Source: Actinomycetota bacterium
GTDB taxonomy: Bacteria > Actinomycetota > Acidimicrobiia > Acidimicrobiales > Ilumatobacteraceae
Direction of reading: 5' to 3'
DNA length: 36,599 nt
Assembly (NCBI GenBank): GCA_009919275.1
Contig: RGCG01000013.1
Span: 1-36,599, forward strand
Shown piece by piece: positions 4,761 to 15,433 of the stretch (its first letter is position 1; the number at the start of each line of letters is the position of its first letter). The position numbers were made by a program, and so were the translations under genes. The notes under the pieces were generated by a model. It did not search any database, was not told the DNA's origin, and saw nothing but the letters and a program-made list of their open reading frames with translations.

Positions 4761-5630
4761 TCACTCGTCGCGCCAGAGCGCCTCGCGCATCTTCCACGCA
4801 CCGATGACGTCGGCATCCATGATGAGTGTGATCCACGGCCGCAAGGTTTCGCGAAGATCGATGACGCGGTTGACGCCGACGGAATGTATGGCGCCATCCG
4901 CGTGAGAGTCGGTGGCGGCCTCGATGGCGCGCTTCGTCCCTTGTCCTTCGGGCGTCAGCGACATCGATCCTCCCATGCGGGCGAGAAGATTGCGTCGCTC
5001 GAGCCTCGTCTTTGCCAATTCCCAAGCGGTGTCGTCCCAACCCGATACGCGCTTGAGGAGATCTTCGGGCATTGCGCCGTCGGCCGCGTGCAGGAGGTGA
5101 CACTCGACGGGGTCGACGCCGTGAGCGGCAGTCGCGCGCCAGTGGGCATCACCACGATGTTCGCGCAGGACGGTGAAAGAGTGCCAAAGGGCGAGTACGG
5201 GATCGTCGGGGTACCCCTGATCGAATGCAGCGGCTCCAATGGGGCTGCCGGCAAAGTCGAGACCCTCGGCCAGCTCACGTGCCGTGCGGACTAATTCGGC
5301 GATCAGGGGCGACGAGTCGACTCCCGGAAGGATTCTCCTGAGACAGGCTCCGGCGGCCTCTTGTCGCGCAGTGCAAATGTCACGTGGGTCGGCGATGTGC
5401 CAGATCGCGGGAACGGATGCGGCGACGTAGGTCGGATTGAAACCAAACAGGACAGCCGCAGCCGTCGTTGCCCCGATGGGACCCATCGCGGCGAGTCGAT
5501 TCGCAAAGTACTGGTGGGGCGGTGTGGTCAGGCCGAGGGACTCGTAGGCCGCCGTGGCTTCGGGCGATCGGTATGCGACTTGGTGGTAAGGCTCGACAAC
5601 CCGCCACAATTCCCGACTCACGTTGCTCAT
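4761..5630 (-). CDS. SCO6745 family protein (HTH_67-type)
   Basis: This 289-residue protein resembles the actinobacterial SCO6745 family. Indicators are the start ELWRVVEPYHQVAYRSPE, the AAMGPIGATTAAAVLFGFNP stretch, the central DPVLALWHSFTVLREHRGDAHW segment typical of the family, and a C-terminal winged-helix-like region (WDDTAWELAKTRLERRNLL... LTPEGQGTKRAIEAATD) resembling MarR-type modules. Function is unknown; DNA binding is possible but not shown, and homologues often sit beside metabolic genes without a clear regulatory role. The ATG at 5630 follows the stop of thrH by six bases, so the two are co-transcribed. No signal peptide or membrane helix is visible. Confidence 0.85.
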   Translation of the reverse strand: MSNVSRELWRVVEPYHQVAYRSPEATAAYESLGLTTPPHQYFANRLAAMGPIGATTAAAVLFGFNPTYVAASVPAIWHIADPRDICTARQEAAGACLRRILPGVDSSPLIAELVRTARELAEGLDFAGSPIGAAAFDQGYPDDPVLALWHSFTVLREHRGDAHWRATAAHGVDPVECHLLHAADGAMPEDLLKRVSGWDDTAWELAKTRLERRNLLARMGGSMSLTPEGQGTKRAIEAATDSHADGAIHSVGVNRVIDLRETLRPWITLIMDADVIGAWKMREALWRDE

Positions 5631-8060: not shown

Positions 8061-9305
8061 TCAGGAGAGGGTCCGGAATCGCCGTTGCGTGGCGAGTACG
8101 ACAAGCACGAGGACGAGCATCGCGGCACCCGTTCCGGAGATTGTTTCGGGCAGTGAGTGGAGGTGTCGTGCGGCGTAACCCACGGCCAACGCTCCCATCG
8201 GCGCGAGTCCGACCATCAAGAGACTGTGGACAGACATGACACGGCCCATGACCTCGGGTGGTGTGTTGCGCTGCAGCAATGTTTGGTTCAAGTTGAGATA
8301 GAAGCCACCGGTGAGCCCCCAGGCGAAGAGAATCAACGCGAGGGTCACGTACGATGGCGCAGGACCAATGAAGACCTGGACGATCGAGCCTGACGTCAGG
8401 CCAAGCATGAACCAGAGCCCCTTTTTTCGCACCCGATGCGAATTGCGCAACAACCACATCGACGTGACGAATTGTCCGAGCCCGAGCATCGTGTACAGGA
8501 ATGTCGCCGAGGACCCGGTCGCACCCACCTGTTCGCGGGCGAACTGAGGGCCCAGAACCATCCACGGCGACATCATGAAAATGACGCTGCCCATGAGAAG
8601 GATGAAGAGAGTGCGGATTTCCTTGTGTGTCGCTATGAATCCGATGCCCGTGGCCAACTCGCTACGAAGATGCGGTCGGTCCATCCGAGGAACAACGGGC
8701 GGAAGCCTGAGCGGGACGAGTGCCAAGAAGCCCAGTCCGTACAGAACCGCCTGGACCCAGAACGCTCCCTCGATGCCCCAGCGACCGATTGCCGGCCCTG
8801 CGATGGCCGGCCCCAAAATCAAGGCAAGATTCGAAGCCACGACGGACACGATGATCGCGTTCATGAGGTGTTCCTGCGGGACGAGGGTCGGAACAATTGC
8901 CGTGCGAACAGGCTGGCCGATCGCGATGAACAACCCGAGAATGGCGGCGCACAGAGTTGCCGATCCGGTCGTGATGTGGTCGGTTGAAACGAGAACCGAG
9001 GTCACCAGCGTGATGACGAACGCACCGGTCTGACTGAGCATGAGGAGAAAGCGTCTGTTCACCCGGTCGCTGACAACCCCCACCGGGAGTGAAATGAAAA
9101 GTGCGGGCAGTCCCATGACGAACAGCAATTGACCGCTCACGTCGGACTTCGAGCCAAGTTCGAGAATCAACCATACAAAAGCAAAACGCTGGGTCGACTG
9201 GACGAGAACAAAGCCCAAGGTGTTGATCCACAGCAGTCGAAAGGCACTCAGACGAAGAACGCCGAAGGCGCTCGCTGGCGCCAATTCGGCGTCGTGACGC
9301 TTCAC
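8061..9305 (-). CDS. MFS transporter (EntS/MFS_3-like)
   Basis: This 414-residue inner-membrane protein has about twelve hydrophobic segments. The first-half MFS loop motif is GVVSDRVNRRFLL, and the helix-4/5 region AAILGLFIAIGQPVRTAIVPTLVP is typical of the MFS_3 (enterobactin exporter EntS-like) branch; ALILGPAIAGPAIGRWG and a second-half NTPPEVMGRVMSV are also characteristic. It is probably a proton-driven exporter. The GTG start at 9305 overlaps the stop of the P450 gene as GTGA, so it is the last gene of the DUF1185-EthD-Rieske-P450 operon and could export or import a substrate or product of that pathway. The substrate is unknown. Confidence 0.9.
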   Translation of the reverse strand: MKRHDAELAPASAFGVLRLSAFRLLWINTLGFVLVQSTQRFAFVWLILELGSKSDVSGQLLFVMGLPALFISLPVGVVSDRVNRRFLLMLSQTGAFVITLVTSVLVSTDHITTGSATLCAAILGLFIAIGQPVRTAIVPTLVPQEHLMNAIIVSVVASNLALILGPAIAGPAIGRWGIEGAFWVQAVLYGLGFLALVPLRLPPVVPRMDRPHLRSELATGIGFIATHKEIRTLFILLMGSVIFMMSPWMVLGPQFAREQVGATGSSATFLYTMLGLGQFVTSMWLLRNSHRVRKKGLWFMLGLTSGSIVQVFIGPAPSYVTLALILFAWGLTGGFYLNLNQTLLQRNTPPEVMGRVMSVHSLLMVGLAPMGALAVGYAARHLHSLPETISGTGAAMLVLVLVVLATQRRFRTLS

Positions 9306-10590: not shown

Positions 10591-12048
10591 TCAGTCGACC
10601 TGTGCTCCAACCCGGTGTGCATCGAGAACGTCGAGACTCTTGCCATCAGCGCGCAGTCCCGCTTCGATGTACGTGTCGATCAACTTGTGGAAGTGACGCA
10701 GGCGACCTTCCATGTAGTTCGCGTACGTCACGGTTTTCTTGCCTGTTGACTTCAGTCCCTGTTGTACGAACGGTACGTTCGACATGTCCTGTTCGAACAC
10801 GTCGGCGAGACCGGCCATGCCGGGGGCCTCGACCCAGCGTTGGTCGCGACGCAGCTTGGTCGTCGGGGCCGGATCGGGTTTGGGCTCGTTGTCAGGCACA
10901 GCCACCATTCGTATGACGTCCATGAAAGCGGTGTCGGGGGTGCGCCCCGGACGCCAGCGGTACATCAGAGGCTGGCCGATTCCGGCCCACGGCGAAAAGG
11001 CCGGAAAGAGGTGGTACAGAACCGCATCGAGAATCTCGGAGTCCGAGTAGTTGTCGAGGTTGGCGCGGAACATCGCCGACATGCGTTGGCGGAACGTGTC
11101 GGCCACATATGCGCGAGCTTCGATTCCTGACGGCACTTCGGGTCGCGTCTGGTCGCTGTAGCCCCGCGAGCGGCTGGAGAACGCGACGAACTCTTCTGCG
11201 ATGGTCTCTTCAGAAAGCTGCTCGAGAAGATGTGGGCTCTGCACGCCGAACGGATTGAAGAAGCGCGAGACCTCGGGGTTGTCGGGATAGATCGAATATT
11301 CACTGTTCTCGTCGCCACAGAAAGGAACGATTTGTGGATGCGTGACGAGCACGTGGTAGCCCTCGCTGAAGGCCTCCATCAACACCTTCCAGTTGCACTC
11401 GACCTCCTTGACGGCGTGGAAGGCCTTGTAGCGCTTTGACAGCGGGAACTCCTTGAAGTGCTCGATCAATTTCGCCGCATATTCCTCGAAGGGCTTGGCG
11501 TTTTGGTCGAAGTTCACGAAGACGATGCCGTCCCACACGGCCACTTTCGCCTGCGGCAGACATGTGGGCTTCGAACCATGGATGAACTGCGGAAAATCCC
11601 AGGAGCCCGGCACATTGACCAAGTCGCCCTTGTTGTCCCACTCCCAGCCGTGGAAGGGACACACGAAGGTGTCGACACGACCTTCGTCGTCGGCAAGACG
11701 CGTTCCTCGGTGCATGCAGGCATTGTGAAGTGCGCGAATCTGGCCGTCCTTGCCACGAATGATGATGAGTGATTCGTCGGCGACGTCGTAGACCACATGC
11801 GAACCGGGTTCCTTCAGTTCGTCCTCGAGGCAGGCAAACTGCCAAGTCTTCATCCAGACGTACTGCTTTTCGAGAGCCGCAAACTCCGGCGAGGTGAAAC
11901 GGGACTTCGGCACCTCTTCGGACCCGACGTACGGGCTCGCAAAGTCGAGGAAGGCCTTTGGTACCGGGCGGGTGTCGGACTTCAGGATGTCTTGAACCTT
12001 CGCGCCGCGAGACTGCGAGATTCCGGGGTCGTTCTCAACTGCGGTCAT
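10591..12048 (-). CDS. Rieske non-heme iron oxygenase, alpha subunit
   Basis: This 485-residue enzyme is the catalytic subunit of a Rieske-type mono- or dioxygenase. The Rieske 2Fe-2S ligands are C111-x-H113 (CMHRG) and C130-x2-H133 (CPFHGW). The catalytic-domain iron site is NWKVLMEAFSEGYHVLVTH, with His232 and His237; the third carboxylate ligand is probably in DAVLYHLFP near residue 341. The layout fits aromatic-ring or alkyl hydroxylating oxygenases acting on aromatic, terpenoid or steroid-like compounds. Its start overlaps the end of the EthD gene by 14 bases. No small beta subunit, ferredoxin or reductase is encoded here, so it may be a homo-oligomeric type. The substrate is not assignable, but the P450 and MFS partners suggest a catabolic operon. 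Confidence 0.93.
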   Translation of the reverse strand: MTAVENDPGISQSRGAKVQDILKSDTRPVPKAFLDFASPYVGSEEVPKSRFTSPEFAALEKQYVWMKTWQFACLEDELKEPGSHVVYDVADESLIIIRGKDGQIRALHNACMHRGTRLADDEGRVDTFVCPFHGWEWDNKGDLVNVPGSWDFPQFIHGSKPTCLPQAKVAVWDGIVFVNFDQNAKPFEEYAAKLIEHFKEFPLSKRYKAFHAVKEVECNWKVLMEAFSEGYHVLVTHPQIVPFCGDENSEYSIYPDNPEVSRFFNPFGVQSPHLLEQLSEETIAEEFVAFSSRSRGYSDQTRPEVPSGIEARAYVADTFRQRMSAMFRANLDNYSDSEILDAVLYHLFPAFSPWAGIGQPLMYRWRPGRTPDTAFMDVIRMVAVPDNEPKPDPAPTTKLRRDQRWVEAPGMAGLADVFEQDMSNVPFVQQGLKSTGKKTVTYANYMEGRLRHFHKLIDTYIEAGLRADGKSLDVLDAHRVGAQVD

Positions 12049-12442
12049 TTCCCTCTCCTGTTGACTTTTGGTCCGGGCCGATGGTCACTTGGACGTGCTC
12101 TTCCACGAACAACCGTAAACGACCACTGACGTGTTGCAGCGAGTCGGATGCGACTTTCTTGCCGAGGTCGGTGGCGTAGGCGGCATCGAAGGCCTCGCGA
12201 CTGTCAAACCAGAGCTCCGAGACTCCGTCGTAGGCCAGATCGTCGGCCCCGTTCAATCCGGGGGCCACCAGGTTGAAGGTGAGACCGCGGAGCCCGGGGA
12301 GCTGGCGGGCGAGGGGGGCGTGGTGGTCGAGCCACCACCGGCGGAAATCCTCGGGACTCTGGTTGGTCCCGCGGGTAAGGAGAATGATCGCCTTGAACTT
12401 CGGCACGGTGGACATTGGTGCGACTTCCTGACTTTCCCTCAT
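12035..12442 (-). CDS. EthD domain protein
   Basis: This is a 135-residue protein (126 if the second ATG at 12415 is used) with a dimeric alpha/beta-barrel EthD fold. Hallmarks are FKAIILLTRGTNQSPEDFRRWWLDHHAPLAR near the start, with the conserved W/H residues before PLAR, and a second half with DGVSELWFDSREAFDAAY. EthD proteins accompany P450s and ring-degrading enzymes and may bind or isomerise intermediates; the original EthD supports ether degradation by a P450. The ATG at 12442 has AAGG five bases upstream; the ATG at 12415 has AGGAAG at a usable distance, so the start is uncertain. It lies 10 bases after the DUF1185 gene and overlaps the Rieske gene. Confidence 0.88.
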   Translation of the reverse strand: MRESQEVAPMSTVPKFKAIILLTRGTNQSPEDFRRWWLDHHAPLARQLPGLRGLTFNLVAPGLNGADDLAYDGVSELWFDSREAFDAAYATDLGKKVASDSLQHVSGRLRLFVEEHVQVTIGPDQKSTGEGNDRS

Positions 12443-12452
12443 TGAGCCTTAT

Positions 12453-13007
12453 TCATTGAGGCTTCACGATGCGGTGGGCTGCGCGGCCACCGGTGGCGTA
12501 GCACAGGGCAACGACGATCTCGTCGGGTCGCGGAGCATCGTCGATGGCGAAGGAAGCGGCGTCCATGTCGTCGAAGACCCAGATGTCGTGACGGTTGGTG
12601 ATGGGCATCGTGAGGCGGAAACCGGCCGCTGCGACCACTTTGGTCGACGGAATGATGGCGGCACCGCCGCCGATCGCAGCCCGTACGGGTGCGCCAAATG
12701 TTGGATGAATGAGCGCGGCTGCATGCTCTGCCTCGCCATCGGTGCCGACAATCGCGCCCTTGCCGTACGCCGTGATCTCTTCGGGGACCGAGCCAAGAAC
12801 TCCGAGGCAACGCGTCGCCAACTCGCCGGCAAGCCACGGCGCGGCCGAGACAAGGGGCGAGAGATCATCGACATAGCGGTTTGCGAAAGGGTTGGCGACC
12901 ACCGCTGCTGCAATGGCCCGCACCGACGGGGTCTCGAGTGACCGCCCGAGGACCATTGTCGTTTCCTCGCGCGAGACGAACCATTTGCGAACGACAAGTG
13001 ACGACAT
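12453..13007 (-). CDS. Amino acid synthesis family protein (DUF1185)
   Basis: This 184-residue soluble protein belongs to the AA_synth/DUF1185 family (PF06684), whose biochemical role is not established. Recognisable parts are the start VRKWFVSREETTMVLGR, ANPFANRYVDDLSPLV, the glycine-rich VPEEITAYGKGAIVGTDGE..AAALIHPTFGAPVR, and KVVAAAGFRLTMPITNRH, which continue nearly unbroken along the family. ATG at 13007 gives the normal family length and lies exactly six bases after a TACTCT box; further in-frame upstream sequence is antisense to the neighbouring oxidase. It is the first gene of the operon leading into EthD, Rieske oxygenase, P450 and MFS genes, so a role in catabolism of the same compound is more likely than amino acid synthesis. 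Confidence 0.88.
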   Translation of the reverse strand: MSSLVVRKWFVSREETTMVLGRSLETPSVRAIAAAVVANPFANRYVDDLSPLVSAAPWLAGELATRCLGVLGSVPEEITAYGKGAIVGTDGEAEHAAALIHPTFGAPVRAAIGGGAAIIPSTKVVAAAGFRLTMPITNRHDIWVFDDMDAASFAIDDAPRPDEIVVALCYATGGRAAHRIVKPQ

Positions 13008-13013
13008 GGGAAG

Positions 13014-13023
13014 AGAGTACTTT
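13014..13023. promoter_or_regulatory. Overlapping divergent -10 boxes (TACTCT minus, TACTTT plus)
   Basis: On the minus strand TACTCT (13014-13019) lies 6 bases before the DUF1185 ATG. On the plus strand TACTTT (13018-13023) lies 7 bases before the oxidase ATG. The two boxes share the TA at 13018-13019 within a GTAC palindrome, so only one polymerase could occupy the site. For the minus direction, TTGACG (minus-strand sequence of 13035-13040) lies 15 bases upstream. Confidence 0.6.
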
Positions 13024-13030
13024 GTCGACC

Positions 13031-14344
13031 ATGCCGTCAACCACGAGGACGCGAACGTGGCACAACTGGGCGGGGAACCAAAGCGCAAGGCCCTTGACGT
13101 GGTGCGAACCCCGCGATGCGTCCACGGCGACGCAGATCGTTCGCGACGCGGCAAGCGACGGTCGTCGTGTCAAAGTCGTTGGATCGGGTCACAGTTTCAC
13201 GGCGGCAGCCGTTGCCGACGACGTGTTGATCGATGTCTCGCGTCTCGACGAGGTTGGGGTCGTCGACCCATCGACCGGCGAGGTCGAAGTTGGGGCGGGC
13301 GTCACCATCGCCAACCTCAACGACGCCCTTGCTCGACAGGGCTGGGCCCTGGCAAATCTCGGGGACATTGCGTACCAAACGATTGCCGGCGCAATCTCAA
13401 CCTCGACCCACGGTACGGGTATCGGCTTGACGGGAATAGCGGGTCAAGTTTCTGCGATGTCTCTCGTTGATGGTTTGGGTAACCAGAGACGTGTCGAGCA
13501 GAACGACGGAGCCGTCTTTCGGGCGGCACAGGTTGGCGTCGGGGCACTCGGTCTCATCACCTCGGTGCGGTTGCGCACGACCCCTGCTTTCGTGCTCGAG
13601 TCCCGCGAGGCTCCGATGCGATTCGACCGTGTGATGGCCGATCTCGATGAACTGGTGTCGGTGAACGAACATTTTGAATTCTTCTGGATTCCGCACACCG
13701 AATGGGCGCTGACCAAGCGGAACAACCGCACCGTGGATCCCCCGCGTCCGCTGACTCCGCTGCGCCAGTGGTGGCAGAAGTCATTTCTCGAGAACACCGC
13801 GTTCGGTCTCGTGTGTCGTTTGGGACGTGCACGACCATCGCTCATTCCGCGGTTGGCGACGGCACTTCCGGGTTCCGGTCAGGTCACGTACTCGAATGCG
13901 AGCCATGCCGTCTTCGCCAGTCAACGCCGCGTGCGGTTTGTCGAGATGGAATACTCGATTCCGCGGGACGCCTGCGCGGAAGCGTTGGGGCGCGTCAAGC
14001 GCATGATCGACGCCCGCGGGTTTCTCGTGAGTTTTCCGGTCGAGGTGCGCTTCACGGCGGGTGACGATGCGACTCTTTCGACTGCGCACGGGCGTGAGTC
14101 CGCGTACATAGCGGTGCACATGTTCAAGGGGACACCCTTCGAGGACTACTTTCGCGAGGTCGAGGCGATCATGGCCGACTACTCCGGCCGGCCCCATTGG
14201 GGAAAGATGCACTTCCTCGACGCCGAGCGACTCGCGGGTTTGTATCCCGGGTGGGATGAGTTTCAAGACGTCCGCAGGGATCTCGATCCCCACGGCGTCT
14301 TCGCCAACCGCTACACCGAGCGCATCTTTGGTGCCGGCGAGTAG
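13031..14344 (+). CDS. FAD-linked D-arabinono-1,4-lactone/L-gulonolactone oxidase family protein
   Basis: This 437-residue flavoenzyme of the VAO/ALO family oxidises sugar lactones or related polyols with oxygen or another acceptor. The N-terminal FAD domain shows VKVVGSGHSF, where the histidine is the usual covalent flavin attachment site, then VGAGVTIANLNDAL, GAISTSTHGTG and GALGLITSVRL. The C-terminal ALO domain contains VEMEYSIPRDACAEAL and the conserved HWGKMHFLD, and ends DPHGVFANRYTERIFG, as in ALO proteins. ATG at 13031 matches the family start (NWAGNQSARPLTWCEP) and lies seven bases after a TACTTT box. It is divergent from the DUF1185 operon across only 23 bases. The specific substrate is unknown; mycobacterial homologues use gulonolactone. 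Confidence 0.92.
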   Translation: MPSTTRTRTWHNWAGNQSARPLTWCEPRDASTATQIVRDAASDGRRVKVVGSGHSFTAAAVADDVLIDVSRLDEVGVVDPSTGEVEVGAGVTIANLNDALARQGWALANLGDIAYQTIAGAISTSTHGTGIGLTGIAGQVSAMSLVDGLGNQRRVEQNDGAVFRAAQVGVGALGLITSVRLRTTPAFVLESREAPMRFDRVMADLDELVSVNEHFEFFWIPHTEWALTKRNNRTVDPPRPLTPLRQWWQKSFLENTAFGLVCRLGRARPSLIPRLATALPGSGQVTYSNASHAVFASQRRVRFVEMEYSIPRDACAEALGRVKRMIDARGFLVSFPVEVRFTAGDDATLSTAHGRESAYIAVHMFKGTPFEDYFREVEAIMADYSGRPHWGKMHFLDAERLAGLYPGWDEFQDVRRDLDPHGVFANRYTERIFGAGE

Positions 14345-14353: not shown

Positions 14354-15433
14354 ATGTCGCAGGTCTCCATCCCGTCTGATGTTAGTGAAGTATCCGCAGC
14401 GTGGCTCGAAAAGGCGCTGAAGGTCGGGGGCAAGGTCGACGTTGGGTTGATTTCCGGAATCGAATTGGCGCAGATCGGTGAGGGCATCGGCGTCATGGGT
14501 GAGATCTATCGCGCGAAGGTGACGTACGGGTCGGGATCCGGTCCGTCGTCGGTGGTTGTAAAGCTGCCATCGCGCGCCGACGCCAATCGCGAACAGGGGA
14601 TCTCGCTCGGCATGTACGAGGCCGAGGTCAACTTCTACACGAAGTGTGCAGACCGCACCGTCGCCTTTGTTCCAAAGGCCTATTTCGCCGACATTCAGTC
14701 GGGTACCGCGAATTTCGTCATCGTCATGGAGGACATGGTTGGGCTGTCCATGGTTTCCCAAATCGAGGGCATGTCCGAAGCACAGACTCTTGCCGCTATC
14801 GACTCCTTGGCAGCGGTACACGCCAGTTGGTGGGGCAAAGCGGACGATCCCGCGATTGCATGGGCGCCCAGCACCGTGCACGAGCGGATTCAGGCCTTCG
14901 CGCAGATGTGGCCCGCTCTTTGGCAGATGTTCCAACCCAATTTCGGGGACAGGTTGTCGGAGGAGGGCATTGCGCTCGGCGAATGGATCTCCACGAATTA
15001 TTGGCGTGCGTGTGAGGAGTTCTCGAAGGCGCCGTGGACGATGCTGCATCTCGATTACCGCGTCGACAATCTCATGTTCGACAAGGATCGGGTCGCCGTC
15101 ATCGACTGGCAGAGTTTGGGGCGTGGTCCGGCGGCGTACGACTTGGCGTATCTCCTGGGTGGAAGCGTCACGGTCGACGTTCGTCGCAAGAACGAAGAGC
15201 GTTGGGTGGGCCACTATCTCGAGGCTCTGCGCGCCGGCGGAGTCGACTATCCGGCTGACTCGTTCTGGCGCGACTACCGGATCGCCCATGTGATCGGTGG
15301 AACCTCGACTTCGGTTCTCACCGGAGCCACGTTCGATCTGGGCAATGAACGAGGCAAACAGCTCATCGGTGCAATGTCCGAGAGACACTTCGCAGCAGCG
15401 GTCGATCTGAAGGGTCGCGACCTTTTCGACTGA
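14354..15433 (+). CDS. APH-fold phosphotransferase, ecdysteroid kinase-like
   Basis: This 359-residue protein has the aminoglycoside-phosphotransferase/choline-kinase fold. The ATP-binding lysine is in SSVVVKLPS, a catalytic loop reads LHLDYRVDNLMFD (HxDxxxxN type), and the metal-binding motif is VIDWQ (D-W replacing the classical D-x-G, as in ecdysteroid kinase-like/DUF1679 proteins). VIVMEDMVGLSMVSQIEGMS is typical of this branch. In actinobacteria such proteins occur near steroid and lipid catabolism genes, with unproven substrates; a small hydroxylated compound is plausible. It begins nine bases after the oxidase stop. Its last codons and stop (TTCGACTGA) form the first unit of a four-copy 18-bp tandem repeat that continues past the gene. 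Confidence 0.85.
   Translation: MSQVSIPSDVSEVSAAWLEKALKVGGKVDVGLISGIELAQIGEGIGVMGEIYRAKVTYGSGSGPSSVVVKLPSRADANREQGISLGMYEAEVNFYTKCADRTVAFVPKAYFADIQSGTANFVIVMEDMVGLSMVSQIEGMSEAQTLAAIDSLAAVHASWWGKADDPAIAWAPSTVHERIQAFAQMWPALWQMFQPNFGDRLSEEGIALGEWISTNYWRACEEFSKAPWTMLHLDYRVDNLMFDKDRVAVIDWQSLGRGPAAYDLAYLLGGSVTVDVRRKNEERWVGHYLEALRAGGVDYPADSFWRDYRIAHVIGGTSTSVLTGATFDLGNERGKQLIGAMSERHFAAAVDLKGRDLFD

Follow-up and report, generated by a model that had tools for sequence, protein, structure and literature searches.

A predicted double-leaderless bidirectional promoter in the 23 bp between two divergent actinobacterial genes

Bidirectional and leaderless promoters

Bidirectional promoters have divergent transcription starts 7–25 bp apart and overlapping reciprocal -10 elements (PMC12825309, PMC10268837). 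According to PMC12825309, 18 bp is the commonest start-to-start distance, and 10 and 23 bp are also common. The simultaneous binding of two polymerases at such promoters is ruled out in the same report. It describes five tested promoters of Escherichia coli, at all of which the basal activity is too low for competition. There, the partner is repressed only when one direction is strongly activated. In Mycobacterium tuberculosis, closely juxtaposed divergent promoters are reported to be common (PMC3898074).

The site described here would combine the -10 symmetry of bidirectional promoters with leaderless translation, each of them already known, in roughly the smallest plausible divergent control region. 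On the basis of its sequence, the 23-bp region fits best into the published 23-bp bidirectional promoter class, as a variant with predicted leaderless starts on both sides.

The 23-bp region, its genes and its conservation

The window is the whole stretch of DNA that was analyzed, 36,599 nucleotides long. It corresponds to contig C25 of an Ilumatobacteraceae genome assembled into 237 contigs with a total of 2.18 Mb. Genes were assigned by a Pfam profile search of the 27 window proteins (Table 1). The minus side had been taken for a Rieske/P450 operon in the preliminary description. Both of these genes are present, but they are the third and the fourth genes of an operon that opens with the AA_synth gene and the EthD-like gene. 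Rieske, P450, and kinase genes also flank the AA_synth/oxidase pair in the three orthologous loci. Most of the oxidase relatives found come from metagenome records with Actinomycetota, Acidimicrobiales or Ilumatobacteraceae in the title, and the closest one is in a record titled Acidobacteria, which is perhaps mislabelled. The only helix-turn-helix match among the 27 proteins is an HTH_67-family protein (PF21863) at 4761–5609 on the minus strand, and its gene lies about 2.5 kb past the end of the minus operon.

Table 1. Features of the divergent gene pair and its surroundings (positions in the window)
Feature	Position	Strand	Basis
Proposed bidirectional promoter, 23-bp intergenic region	13008..13030	no strand	sequence; kept in L022, L023, L024
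-10-like box TACTCT (AGAGTA on the plus strand), AA_synth operon	13014..13019	minus	6 nt 5' of ATG; same in 4 species
-10-like box TACTTT, oxidase operon	13018..13023	plus	7 nt 5' of ATG; same in 4 species
13-bp core AGAGTACTTTGTC	13014..13026	no strand	identical in 4 species
AA_synth family gene (PF06684), predicted leaderless	12453..13007	minus	profile and orthologue comparison
EthD-domain gene, second of the minus operon, start approximate	12035..12442	minus	profile
Rieske ring-hydroxylating oxygenase alpha-subunit-like gene	10591..12048	minus	profile
Cytochrome P450 gene	9302..10546	minus	profile
MFS transporter gene	8061..9305	minus	profile
FAD-binding, D-arabinono-1,4-lactone-oxidase-family gene, predicted leaderless	13031..14344	plus	profile and comparison
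EcKL/APH kinase-like gene, 3' of the oxidase gene	14354..15433	plus	profile

Positions 13005–13033 read CATGGGAAGAGAGTACTTTGTCGACCATG. The minus ATG runs from 13007 and the plus ATG from 13031, leaving 23 bases between them and putting the start positions 24 apart. The two boxes have the TA at 13018–13019 in common. Both the distance between the start codons and the overlap of the boxes at TA had been pointed out earlier and are borne out by these coordinates. The promoters had also been called face-to-face; their arrangement is divergent, or back-to-back. The spacers between box and start codon are 13008–13013 on the minus side and 13024–13030 on the plus side. The first base of the minus box lies 12 bases before its ATG, as in the leaderless type with TANNNT about 12 bp upstream. 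The key -10 positions on the opposite strands overlap reciprocally in all four species. From the boxes and the start codons, the distance between the transcription starts is predicted to be 23–24 bp, which falls within the range for bidirectional promoters. As a rule of geometry, TA-sharing boxes give 23 bp with two 6-nt spacers and 24 bp with spacers of 6 and 7 nt.

The AA_synth/oxidase pair is found in four genomes of the same genus: the window, L022 (the G105 site), L023 (G071), and L024 (G001). In this order, the spacer lengths (nt) on the minus and plus sides are 6/7, 6/7, 7/7, and 7/7; the start codon is ATG, ATG, ATG, and GTG for the minus gene and ATG, ATG, GTG, and GTG for the plus gene. 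The core is identical throughout. Only 32 of the 141 AA_synth codons that encode the same residue in every one of the four genomes have an invariant third base, and thus 13 unchanged bases in a row are unlike neutral DNA. As a counterweight, invariant runs of 17 and 14 columns are seen inside the AA_synth coding sequence, and 0.626 of all columns are invariant.

Two TANNNT boxes need only four fixed positions in their 10-bp overlap. The invariance of all 13 bases exceeds this need and hints at something more, for example, room for a local regulator. The core could be, or could also be, the operator of a putative regulator controlling both genes, with the boxes only part of the reason for its conservation. 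The palindromic center of the core, AGTACT, would fit an operator. However, the own genome contains no second core site within one mismatch, and none of the 27 window proteins tested is a regulator encoded next to the pair. With up to one mismatch, 13 genomes of the genus give 21 matches (the four exact ones are the orthologous sites), versus 30 for the reversed control, and a regulon with a common 13-bp operator is not supported. The operator explanation is considered unlikely.

The start codons bear on whether the proposed promoter is leaderless on both sides. The PF06684 profile alignment opens at residue 6 of the minus protein, and the tblastn alignments of the three orthologues run from residue 1. 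L023 and L024 have an in-frame stop just 5' of AA_synth, with no start codon among the 6 codons between it and the minus start. Judged from these codons, the predicted minus start is firm in these two loci. A TTG at 13022, in frame with the oxidase and common to all four species, is an alternative plus start. The predicted plus start is less certain than the minus start because the in-frame stop in L024 lies 9 codons before the GTG, and this TTG is among those codons.

The own-genome sample consists of the window and L002–L021 (195,326 bases), and its 117 genes come from a crude longest-ORF call with uncurated starts. Here TANNNT precedes early ATG/GTG codons with a 6-nt spacer in 10 of 209 cases and with a 7-nt spacer in 5 of 209; at internal codons (n = 1,924), both fractions round to 0.000. 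In 80 related loci, the corresponding counts are 17 and 7 of 476 early codons, versus 0.002 and 0.003. The peak of TANNNT at 6–7 nt before starts in this genome, the spacers of the window site, and their retention in four species back the earlier claim of leaderless spacing at both genes. TANNNT is depleted in the own-genome sample (281 on both strands versus 815 expected from the TA count), where the TA dinucleotide is at 0.31 of expectation. It is also strongly depleted in G001 (sample L218–L237; 665 versus 1697 expected), with TA at 0.34 of expectation. This depletion may be an avoidance of stray -10 elements.

At AA_synth, TANNNT is seen 5–9 nt before a candidate start in 22 of the 29 fetched family loci, or 19 of 26 without the three orthologues (L103–L131, own locus excluded; L127 was masked and L128 reached no start). 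At the oxidase, a leaderless-type box is seen in 15 of 74 other loci, which led to the rejection of a leaderless start as a general trait of the oxidase (L022–L101, with L069, L078, and L095 dropped because the match stopped short of the N-terminus, and the three pair orthologues set aside). The difference between these counts and the presence of the TTG in all four species would agree with a leaderless start on the minus side only, with the plus gene starting from the TTG or from a promoter inside AA_synth with a leader, but this is improbable: the TACTTT box and its spacer are kept in four species even with a GTG start, the TTG overlaps the box, and no consensus -35/-10 promoter or terminator was found in 12900–13140 by a scan with models of the TTGACA/TATAAT type, which are blind to -10-only promoters.

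Recurrence in the family and origin of the AA_synth side

The exact pattern has one match in the window versus a mean of 0.02 in 100 dinucleotide shuffles, two of which contain a match. One strand of the own-genome sample, window included, has 16 occurrences of ANNNTANNNT. This sample has 41 placements of CAT N23 ATG, and the only one to contain ANNNTANNNT is the window site. In the own genome, CAT-N6-ANNNTANNNT-N7-ATG has four matches versus one for the reversed control, each of the four being flanked on both sides by divergent open frames of 150 codons or more. One further match has 6/6 spacers. The arrangement had been called an extreme case, which is too strong in view of these own-genome matches and of its recurrence in the family.

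Across 81 family genomes, the own genome included, the 6/7 pattern has 88 matches in 49 genomes, with 29 for the reversed control. The same boxes with spacers lengthened to 10 and 11 have 14 matches in 10 genomes. The reversed control of this lengthened pattern itself gives 34, so that reversed controls are not neutral and the lengthened spacers are the better yardstick. With 6/6 spacers, 62 places are found in 38 of the 81 genomes, versus 12 reversed-control places. The 18-bp geometry is weak as a competing double-leaderless form, with counts hardly above the controls: 36 matches in 28 of the 81 genomes versus 26, of which about 9 of the 36 are one CATATG-containing repeat-like sequence, and, with 6/6 spacers, 10 places in 9 genomes versus 6.

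Thirty of the 88 matches with 6/7 spacers were fetched, one of them the window site. Flanking open frames of 100 codons or more are present on each side at 11 of the 29 fetched 6/7 loci outside the own genome, at 20 of the 30 fetched loci with 6/6 spacers (of 62), at 0 of 4 with lengthened spacers (of 14), and at 3 of 8 of the 18-bp type (of 36), although GC-rich DNA yields long open frames by chance and the control set is small. Since only 11 of the 29 have two frames, part of the family count represents single leaderless genes or chance. Five matches in genomes of genus g9 (L160–L164) resemble single leaderless genes that happen to have a CAT on the other side. They have a near-identical leaderless-type box, AAAAAAACTAGGCT, before the start of a gene that by eye resembles glyceraldehyde-3-phosphate dehydrogenase.

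Own-genome sites also recur across species: those on C156 and C136 are found in G071, and the C156 site is found in G001. The C136 site (C136:7564-7592; about 1501–1529 of L145) is a second pair with the core GAGAGTACATTCTC, which has AGAGTAC in common with the window core. By eye, one frame of this pair is like an acyl-CoA dehydrogenase and the other gene is unassigned; nearly the same 29 bases are seen in G071. The own genome and G001 together contributed 595,326 bases, which contain 49 adjacent divergent pairs within 150 bp. TANNNT stands at a 6–9-nt spacer before candidate starts on both sides in 17 of them, and the boxes overlap in 3 of the 17, both numbers being upper bounds because the candidate starts are permissive. 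In our judgement, the TA-shared double-leaderless class appears to be real, with some false matches.

An EthD match lies beside AA_synth in 29 of 29 fetched family loci, which suggests that the two genes form a functional unit. Among 13 genomes of the genus, the oxidase is found in nine, four of them with AA_synth and the compact promoter and five without AA_synth. In these five, which also lack the EthD gene, the Rieske and oxidase genes are immediate divergent neighbors, with about 150–155 bp between them (L026, L027, L028, L032, and L050; the same sites as L136–L140). No leaderless-type box was found at the Rieske or the oxidase start in these five loci. The simplest inference is that a unit of AA_synth and EthD, bringing a leaderless start of its own, was either gained or lost.

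It can be speculated, with about even confidence, that selection maintains double-leaderless bidirectional promoters as a recurring arrangement of gene pairs across the family. The intergenic region would be at the polymerase minimum of 22–24 bp, the geometry of the -10 elements would set the distance between the start codons, and the beginning of each coding sequence would double as the upstream promoter region of the other gene. In the genus, this architecture would stand at the place where the relatives without AA_synth-EthD have a Rieske-oxidase gap of about 150 bp.

Predicted activity and comparison with known systems

The 23 bp are probably a complete minimal bidirectional promoter, leaderless on both sides, from which both arms would be expressed in parallel at a low level. 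The scan for a consensus -35/-10 promoter, which found none, and the 15 of 74 loci with a box at the oxidase weigh against this reading. The -10 elements are both TANNNT, presumably recognized by a housekeeping sigma factor, and would let the polymerase bind in either orientation through the joint TA step. Judging from spacing and conservation, each RNA would begin on its start codon or no more than one base away from it, so that both mRNAs would be leaderless, and the upstream part of each promoter would lie within the initial codons of the gene on the other side. A single polymerase would fit at a time, and with low activity the two directions would fire largely independently. By analogy with the work on E. 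coli, the two arms of one conserved gene neighborhood may show low, parallel expression instead of switching, and exclusion would matter only under strong drive of one side.

The preliminary description had proposed that one polymerase must exclude the other, giving a mutually exclusive switch in which the cell expresses the minus or the plus operon. Exclusion itself is sterically expected, as the joint TA step and the 24-bp start distance would bar simultaneous binding according to PMC12825309, and the repression of a strongly activated promoter's partner in E. coli fits a switch. However, the five promoters tested there are too weak at the basal level to compete, the divergent leaderless pair Rv1130/Rv1129c of M. 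tuberculosis is induced together on starvation (PMC3898074), and neither an activator nor a second regulatory site was found at the locus. The switch as proposed is not supported. It is hardly to be expected and, by analogy, would be possible only under strong one-sided activation.

If the minimal bidirectional promoter is as proposed, the distance separating divergent start codons in lineages of this kind could be read as polymerase geometry, which would help to place start codons and promoters where RNA data are lacking. The counts indicate that the pairing of bidirectional -10 symmetry with leaderless starts recurs. Double-leaderless pairs would be a natural set for asking if a shared promoter links the expression of its two genes or keeps it apart.

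In the literature searched on leaderless genes with divergent, bidirectional or overlapping promoters, with most subscription journals outside the search, a double-leaderless promoter with shared -10 boxes was not found. As described in their sources, crtR/crtE of Corynebacterium glutamicum (200 bp apart; PMC5401885) and lysG/lysE of M. tuberculosis (108 bp; PMC5648196) were set aside because they are arranged differently, and so were a case in Pyrococcus furiosus (PMC6640164) and phoR of Streptomyces filipinensis (PMC6283541).

The EcoRV restriction-modification promoters are likewise overlapping and divergent, with no joint polymerase occupancy, but are under C protein control; a leaderless C transcript is described as a feature of AhdI and said to be absent from EcoRV (PMC5333194). 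Rv1130/Rv1129c is likewise a divergent pair with both mRNAs leaderless, but one partner is a regulator (PMC3898074). Leaderless actinobacterial promoters have the same TANNNT about 12 bp before the start, the same spacing, and the same high-GC setting (PMC3160421, PMC3898074). As described there, they are single promoters, whereas two are fused at the window site. The 23-bp class described by Warman, Grainger and colleagues has the same divergent starts and overlapping -10 elements, with 23 bp common after 18 bp (PMC12825309, PMC10268837). The reported preference for 18 bp in E. coli differs from the double-leaderless counts in the family, in which the TA-shared geometry is clearly above the controls and the 18-bp geometry hardly so. 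Unlike in the published class, both predicted transcription starts at the window site coincide with start codons, with no leader on either side.
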